Assembly: GCA_902805935.1 (NCBI GenBank) | Contig: CADCUR010000065.1 | Coordinates: 4,302-39,048, forward strand | Length of the DNA stretch: 34,747 bases | Reading direction: 5' to 3' | Source: an uncultured Pyrinomonadaceae bacterium | GTDB lineage: Bacteria; Acidobacteriota; Blastocatellia; Pyrinomonadales; Pyrinomonadaceae | Position numbers and translations under genes: made by a program | The notes under the pieces: model-generated | Told to the model about the DNA's origin: nothing | Database searches by the model: none | What the model saw: only the letters and a program-made list of their open reading frames with translations | Part shown: positions 4,683 to 6,255 of the stretch, in pieces | How positions within the stretch are numbered: the first letter of the stretch is position 1 | Layout of the letters: each line of letters starts with the position of its first letter

Positions 4683-4802
4683 TTCTAAACAGAATTTAAC
4701 CGCGAACAAATACGAACGAACACGAAAAATTAGAACCGACTCTTAAGTGATTTTAATTTCGTGAATTTTCGTATTCGTTCGTGGTTAAAAATCCTGTCTT
4801 AA
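4683..4802. repeat. Long imperfect palindrome between convergent genes (putative bidirectional terminator)
   Basis: Left arm TTTAACCGCGAACAAATACGAACGAACACGAAA from 4695; right arm reverse complement TTTAACCACGAACGAATACGAAAATTCACGAAA ending 4799; weaker pairing extends outward. Confidence 0.7.
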
Positions 4803-4805
4803 AGA

Positions 4806-5780
4806 TTAATTCTTTAGAACCAAAATTCTGTTCGGCGGCAGCCCGACCATACATTCTTCGCCGACGTTGAGACCGACGAGTCGCAAAACCAACGCTTCGA
4901 GCGTCAAGCCATTAGCGTTGAGTTTGATAAGCGTCGTTGCGCCGAGAAACGAAACGCCGGTGATCTCGGCGCGCAGCAGATTGTCTTCGGGGAATGACGC
5001 GCCGAAAGAGATGGAAACGTGTTCGGGACGAATGGCGAGCGTGACCGTTTGATTGACTGCGCCGGGAGCGTCCGTTTCCACACGGTCGGTGAACAATCGG
5101 TGTTCGCCCTTTAAGGTTTGAAATTCCGGCGCGTCGCTTTTGCTCGATGCGATGCGTTTCGCTTCAATCAAATTATTTCTGCCCGTCACGCGCGCGACGG
5201 CGACGCAATTCGGATTTTCAAAAACTTCGCGCGGCGTTCCCGTCTGCACGATAACGCCGTTATGAAGAACCGAAACGCGGTCGCAGATGGAAAAAACTTC
5301 GTTATAATCGTTGGTCGCAAAAATTACCGCCAGATTTTTTTCCTTCACCGCCTGTCGCAGTTTTTCGCAATTACGTTCGCGCGTGATGCGGTCCATAAAA
5401 CAAAATTGGTTATCGAGCAGCAACACTTCGCAAGCGTTTTGCAGAGCGTGTTCGAGAGCTAAAACCTGCCCTTCGCCGTCGGCAAGCTGTGAAGATTTTT
5501 GCGTATTGAACATTGATTTCCAAAACTCGTCGTTCGTCAGTTTCGGAAAATTGAAGCCGCGCTCGTCGCAATCGCGGCTTGTCAAATCTTCGGAATTATA
5601 AAAAATCGTGCCGTCGTTCTGCGGTTCGACGCCGGCGAGAACGCGGATAACCGTTGTTTTTCCTTCTGCCACCACGCCGAATAAACCCAAAATTTCGCCT
5701 TTTTCGACCTGCAACGAGACATCTTTGATGACCCAATTATTGTCGTATTTTTTCGAGAGATTGTTGATAATCAGTGACAT
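4806..5780 (-). CDS. ABC transporter ATP-binding subunit with TOBE-like C-terminus and degenerate catalytic motifs
   Basis: Start taken at MSLIINNLSKKYDN (ATG at 5778-5780; ORF track extends to 5861). Walker A GVVAEGKTT; degenerate signature LADGEGQ; Walker B VLLLDNQ; switch region FATNDYNE; C-terminal LAIRPEHVSI, as in MalK/PotA-type TOBE regions. Confidence 0.85.
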   Translation of the reverse strand: MSLIINNLSKKYDNNWVIKDVSLQVEKGEILGLFGVVAEGKTTVIRVLAGVEPQNDGTIFYNSEDLTSRDCDERGFNFPKLTNDEFWKSMFNTQKSSQLADGEGQVLALEHALQNACEVLLLDNQFCFMDRITRERNCEKLRQAVKEKNLAVIFATNDYNEVFSICDRVSVLHNGVIVQTGTPREVFENPNCVAVARVTGRNNLIEAKRIASSKSDAPEFQTLKGEHRLFTDRVETDAPGAVNQTVTLAIRPEHVSISFGASFPEDNLLRAEITGVSFLGATTLIKLNANGLTLEALVLRLVGLNVGEECMVGLPPNRILVLKN

Positions 5781-5979
5781 TTCTTTATGAAAAAATATGA
5801 AACTTCTGTGTAAAAGGCGCGTGCAAATTAAAAGTATGCTTATGTCATCCGAATAAGGCAAGCGGGCAGAAAAGTAAATAGTCTAAAGTTAAAAGCAAAA
5901 ACTTTTTGCTTTTTTTGTTCAAAACCATTACCGATTGCGATACAATAATTTTTGAGGAAATGCGAGTTGATTAAAAATT

Positions 5980-6255
5980 ATGGCAAAAGACAATGCAAGT
6001 TTGAAAAGAAAGGTGATTGAAGCGGGCAGTTGGAAGGTAGCGCGCCGCGTTGCCAAATCTATTCCATACGTCGGGACAGCAGTGTCAATCGGTCTGGTCG
6101 GCTACGACATCAAAAAAAAAGGCGTCGTTAAGGGCGTTTTGAATTCGGGTCTCGACGCGATTCCGTTCGTCGGTTTAGGAAAAAACGTTATCGAATTTTT
6201 TACGGGCGATTTGCTGCCTGACAAAACGGTTAATGGTGGAAAAAATGAAAAATAA
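5980..6255 (+). CDS. Small hydrophobic protein (91 aa), hypothetical
   Basis: ATG ORF; two similar segments IPYVGTAVSIGLVGYDIKKKGVVKG and IPFVGLGKNVIEFFTGDLLPDKTVNG; 3' end overlaps the start of the next gene. Confidence 0.7.
   Translation: MAKDNASLKRKVIEAGSWKVARRVAKSIPYVGTAVSIGLVGYDIKKKGVVKGVLNSGLDAIPFVGLGKNVIEFFTGDLLPDKTVNGGKNEK

Follow-up and report, generated by a model that had tools for sequence, protein, structure and literature searches.

The gene at the centre of this analysis lies in a window of 34,747 nucleotides (the whole stretch of DNA that was analysed) from an uncultured bacterium of the soil family Pyrinomonadaceae. We interpret it as an ATPase gene that has outlasted its PhnT2/FbpC-like importer and been exapted, and its product would be a non-hydrolysing nucleotide-binding protein working via its TOBE domain, probably in regulation; the probability of this reading is put at roughly 0.6. 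The window ORF is not an isolated oddity but a member of a clade spanning 53 genomes. The features on which the argument draws are collected in Table 1.

Table 1. Features of the short ABC ATPase-like gene and its surroundings, in window coordinates.
Feature	Position	Strand	Remarks
Short ABC ATPase-like protein, TOBE-bearing, with no transporter	4806..5780	-	324 aa, stop codon within coordinates; one of 53 family orthologues
Walker A GVVAEGKTT, residues 35-43	5652..5678	-	G40 in 52/52 and K41 in 51/52 full-length short proteins
Residues 72-98, remnant at the expected place of the Q-loop and the larger part of the helical subdomain	5487..5567	-	Low model confidence at residues 81-100
LADGE replacing the LSGGQ signature, residues 99-103	5472..5486	-	
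Walker B LLLDNQ, residues 120-125	5406..5423	-	D123 invariant; Asn124 at the catalytic Glu position
FATNDYNE, residues 154-161	5298..5321	-	Asn157 at the switch His position
C-terminal linker and TOBE region, residues 190-324	4809..5213	-	With IRPEH and ASFPEDN; most constrained part across the short clade
Leader motif AAGTTTC (clade: AAAGTTYC)	5799..5805	-	About 18 nt before the start codon
Promoter-like element CTTGCCTTATTCG-GATGACATAAGCATACTTTTAATTTGCACG	5820..5862	-	TTGCCT-N17-CATACT, spaced like a -35/-10 pair
C3, orphan protein of 91 aa, divergently encoded; synteny marker	5980..6255	+	Adjoins short genes and long-form operons alike

The reading frame was confirmed to run uninterrupted on the minus strand from 5780 to 4806, as an earlier note on this DNA had stated, and all of the motifs quoted there (GVVAEGKTT, LADGE, LLLDNQ, FATNDYNE and LAIRPEHVSI) were found in it. 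The Walker A pattern GxxxxGK[ST] and the Walker B Asp are both kept. Two Pfam families matched the protein above cut-off: ABC_tran by its N-terminal part only (positions 2-55 of the 137 in the profile), and TOBE_2 in its entirety, in agreement with the intact TOBE-like C-terminus described earlier. The interval from Walker A to the signature is 55 residues, as compared to 89-96 in canonical relatives, and together with the truncated ABC_tran match this bears out the claim that the helical domain has been nearly deleted. NCBIfam and PDB profiles similarly aligned in two separated stretches with the middle absent, and the NCBIfam score fell far under every cut-off listed (160.7 vs 457.7 bits for PhnT2). 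A monomer predicted by AlphaFold displayed an ABC core and a TOBE domain with good confidence (pLDDT 86, pTM 0.80), the poorest-modelled part being residues 81-100 of the helical-region remnant; L202, a more strongly reduced member, was modelled with low confidence (pLDDT 68), and its model was set aside. When the window model was compared to known structures by Foldseek, the best PDB match was FbpC of Thermus thermophilus (TM 0.77), with MalK at up to 0.83; a sequence search of the PDB with the TOBE region alone yielded nothing significant. The window protein shares descent and fold with ATPase subunits of the FbpC/PhnT2/PotA type.

Relatives of the gene were sought by a six-frame search of 119 genomes of the GTDB family (an identical set was returned for family and order), and were found in 74 of them, 53 carrying a short form and 21 a long form. 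The long proteins are canonical, with 357-369 aa, a Q-loop, LSGGQ, DE and TH (16 aligned of 21). The short proteins measure 288-326 aa (n=53, one of them cut by a contig end; residue counts below use the 52 full-length sequences), and their Walker A to signature interval is 26-57 residues vs 89-96 in the long ones. The Q-loop/helical region is missing in all 52, and present in all aligned long proteins. Position 124, that of the catalytic Glu, is most often D (23) or N (15); E is found there in 7, and the other 7 have G, S or R; at position 157, that of the switch His, N (23) and S (17) prevail and His was seen once. The Glu/His pair is thus broken in 51 of 52. A single short protein (L027:546-1478) keeps both residues, still without a signature or a helical domain. 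Since 51 of the 52 have no intact pair and none has a Q-loop/helical region, the degraded motif pattern is not due to chance, and in orthologues the substitution of the Walker B Glu and the absence of the switch His and of the helical region all proved to be conserved. When analyzed in a tree with the long proteins, the short ones occupy one side of a branch with a support of 100, that is, they form one clade. No relative outside the family was detected in a 297-genome phylum sample at E 1e-40; those relatives that carry names belong to Pyrinomonadaceae or are unclassified Acidobacteria MAGs, and the literature searches turned up no account of a family like this.

What was retained is as consistent as what was lost. 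Gly40, the Walker B Asp123 and the D-loop Asp130 occur in 52/52 short proteins, Lys41 in 51/52, and the full Walker A pattern in 46/52. Judging from these conserved residues, the window protein would still be expected to bind nucleotide. This may not be universal among the short proteins, as the Walker A Ser/Thr has been lost in three of them and Arg replaces Lys in one. The distribution of constraint has also changed. The ratio of divergence in the TOBE part (residues 190-324) to that in the C-terminal half of the NBD (99-189), bootstrapped over columns, was 3.59 (CI 2.51-5.80) in the long proteins and 0.63 (0.54-0.72) in the short ones; maximum-likelihood partition rates for TOBE and NBD were 1.65 vs 0.44 and 0.67 vs 0.97, respectively. 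As both measures reverse between the two forms, the weight of constraint has passed from the motor to the tail. The shift is clear for the clade as a whole and amounts only to parity in the window's subclade, where the ratio was 0.86 (CI 0.68-1.09; 0.62 in the remaining short proteins), so that TOBE is not clearly more constrained than the NBD there, and pairwise dN/dS even favours the NBD. Thirteen of the 22 columns that are invariant across the 52 short proteins lie in the TOBE part (G225, H227, L248, R251, P252, E253, P264, D266, N267, G280, L292, V298 and C310), two of which, P264 and D266, are variable in the long proteins.

It is this shift of constraint to the TOBE domain that suggests a sensing or regulatory role. 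The same data are also compatible with a function residing in TOBE only, as a ligand-, nucleic acid- or protein-binding module, with the NBD remnant serving as a folding and dimerisation scaffold to which ATP is irrelevant. The most reduced members (L046, L050 and L053), with 26 residues from Walker A to the signature, no Walker A Ser/Thr and a TOBE domain which is still conserved, speak for such a scenario; the near-complete retention of G40, K41, D123 and D130 is hard to explain without nucleotide binding. We regard it as possible, though clearly the less probable of the two.

The origin of the short gene is indicated by its surroundings. Most long genes share an operon with genes encoding a fused double permease, a PIG-L protein and an extracellular solute-binding protein (SBP_bac_6/8). 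According to NCBIfam, the three transporter parts are nearest to putative 2-aminoethylphosphonate systems (PhnT2/PhnU2/PhnS2), below equivalog cut-offs, and the operon typically constitutes a PhnT2/FbpC-like importer. An orthologue of its permease, counted at 69% identity or more to the query, was present in 21/21 long genomes and in 0/53 short genomes. The window's own genome does hold a distant fused FutB-like permease (G000:C78:4732-6830, 30% identity) with its own ATPase adjoining, the open frame of which is only 231 aa and thus probably too short for a TOBE domain. The short genes stand alone, in most cases with C3 on one side and an OmpA-like gene on the other. Wherever flanks were read, neither a permease nor a binding protein adjoins them, and this includes the window gene, for which it had already been noted. 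C3, which has no Pfam match and is characterized by the motifs IPxVG, DIKKKG, GLDxxPxVG and FTGDxIPDK, was found in 87 of the 119 genomes, usually as a single copy, beside gatA or beside the short gene. Both the short gene and the long operon have it upstream in divergent orientation, so that the two loci look like positional homologues at their C3 end, and the short gene is most likely the orthologue of the long gene after loss of the transporter. In the tree, two long proteins of g10 group with the short ones against the other 14 long proteins (support 100), and they possess ASFP(A)DN, most of the ASFPEDN motif of the short proteins. In view of synteny and tree, the most likely direction is from long to short, the transporter having been lost. 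In the genomes of loci L171, L172, L173 and L180, gatA and C3 are kept and the importer ATPase and permease genes are gone from that place.

A different neighbourhood was observed in two g5 genomes (L090:6995-9143 and L092:5784-7954), where the short gene follows an MlaD-domain gene at a distance of 10-26 bp, both being on one strand, and may be co-transcribed with it. This arrangement would fit a role as accessory regulator in lipid transport (MCE/Mla). It is limited to these two genomes, the other short loci having C3, coiled-coil, VIT/VWA and OmpA-like genes as their usual neighbours, and the explanation is accordingly considered improbable. Also improbable, and slightly more so, is that the protein is still a transport ATPase which energises other permeases in trans, in the manner of the multitask ATPase MsmX. 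Multitask NBDs are known in type I importers (PMC7658222), and other BPD permeases are present in the window's genome; however, several of these adjoin an ATPase gene of their own, and the short protein has lost the helical subdomain that contacts the coupling helices, together with the Q-loop, the signature and the Glu/His pair.

A conserved block, CTTGC-N8-GATGACAANAGCATACTTTTNTTTGCACG, is found about 40 nt 5' of the start codon and is followed by AAAGTTYC in 51 of the 53 short genes, the copies in L017, L040, L043 and L044 being degenerate; the two genes without it are those downstream of the MlaD-domain gene. Mean column conservation is 0.84 within the block vs 0.54-0.56 in its flanks, and the element is missing upstream of every long gene. 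At up to three mismatches, it was detected as one copy per genome in 35 of the 119 genomes, and a control with the reversed pattern was never matched. Thirty-three of these sites are at a short gene and two are beside C3 with the gene gone. The window's own genome has a single site; no site was found outside the family in the phylum sample. In G052, G053 and G062, from which the gene has disappeared, the block persists next to C3 as a relic with mismatches in each. The TTGCNT-N17-CATACT spacing is suggestive of a promoter in which selection also acts on the spacer and the start region, and this would point to a dedicated regulator or to autoregulation. A consensus scan did not report the element as a promoter, so the label derives from conservation and spacing. 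Two other roles were considered and rejected: a leader peptide (ATG ACA ...), as codon 3 of the window copy is a stop and the frame is broken by indels in relatives, and a regulon marker, as sites in the own genome, the family and the phylum sample occur only at short genes or their relics. On the other side of the gene, a long AT-rich inverted repeat (4689-4797) separates it from the convergent OmpA-like gene and is probably a bidirectional terminator; at this locus Rfam yielded only plant microRNA models, below threshold, at the repeat.

Least probable of all is a slowly decaying pseudogene: NBD motifs are indeed progressively lost and the gene has been cleanly lost in G005, G044, G052, G053, G062 and G073, but 22 positions are invariant over 52 sequences, the upstream element decays only where the gene is gone, none of the short matches contains an internal stop, and whole-gene pairwise dN/dS in close short pairs is about 0.07-0.15 (both estimators being rough where dS is near or above 1), indicating purifying rather than relaxed selection. 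The clean losses do imply that the gene is dispensable.

Taken together, the results argue for an exapted ATPase gene. In the short clade neither the cognate permease orthologue nor the helical subdomain and Q-loop is left, and the hydrolysis residues have been replaced, with the phosphate-holding residues and the D-loop Asp retained. The product may reside in the cytosol, probably as a dimer, and serve as a scaffold that binds ATP without hydrolysing it; its tandem-OB TOBE domain would bind a small ligand or a protein partner, and the protein would in this way act as a sensor or regulator, a role akin to that of the MalK/ModC regulatory domains with transport removed. The pseudo-ATPase half of the earlier note's proposal is well supported by the conserved residue losses, the purifying selection and the absence of the cognate permease; its other half, repurposing for sensing or regulation, stands as a hypothesis, and no ligand, partner, target or regulon was found for the short proteins in this analysis. 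A more specific version, in which a free-standing ATP-binding regulator derived from an ABC transport ATPase acts via TOBE, possibly on its own promoter, is offered tentatively; the latter possibility is raised by the strong conservation of the element, its single copy per genome and its decay after gene loss.

Few known machines are as conserved as ABC NBDs, and a lineage with an eroding motor half and a newly constrained regulatory tail is a natural experiment in how transport subunits become regulators. Since the family holds canonical, partly eroded and strongly reduced forms as well as clean losses, the order of events can be tested. If an ATP-binding TOBE regulator is indeed encoded, it would represent a class of transporter-derived regulator with its intermediates preserved over about ten genera. 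There is also a caution for annotation, as such genes will be named transport ATP-binding proteins despite having no accompanying transporter.

Among known systems, the ATPase subunits of type I importers of the FbpC/PhnT2/PotA type share a common fold, domain order, TOBE_2 and ancestry with the window protein, which differs from them in having no Q-loop, helical subdomain, LSGGQ, catalytic Glu, switch His, permease or binding protein. E. coli MalK sequesters MalT; it resembles the window protein in being an ABC subunit that bears a TOBE domain and, in addition to transport, has a regulatory role, but is an active transport ATPase, whereas the window protein has no transporter. MalK is also bound by EIIA-Glc (PMC10710835). 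The C-terminal regulatory domain of ModC, at the same position as the TOBE domain of the window protein, binds molybdate/tungstate at the dimer interface (PMC10710835); its ligand inhibits transport, while the window protein has no transport left. In gonococcal FbpC the C-terminal domain comprises two OB folds per monomer, domain-swapped between subunits, and iron binding by a C-terminal histidine cluster has been thought plausible (PMC2896483). By analogy, FbpC, ModC and MalK are precedents for regulation via such subunits rather than evidence on the window protein. The degenerate nucleotide-binding sites of heterodimeric ABC transporters likewise combine replaced catalytic residues with retained nucleotide-binding ones. 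In those transporters a competent NBD and a membrane domain remain as partners, and the helical subdomains are kept.
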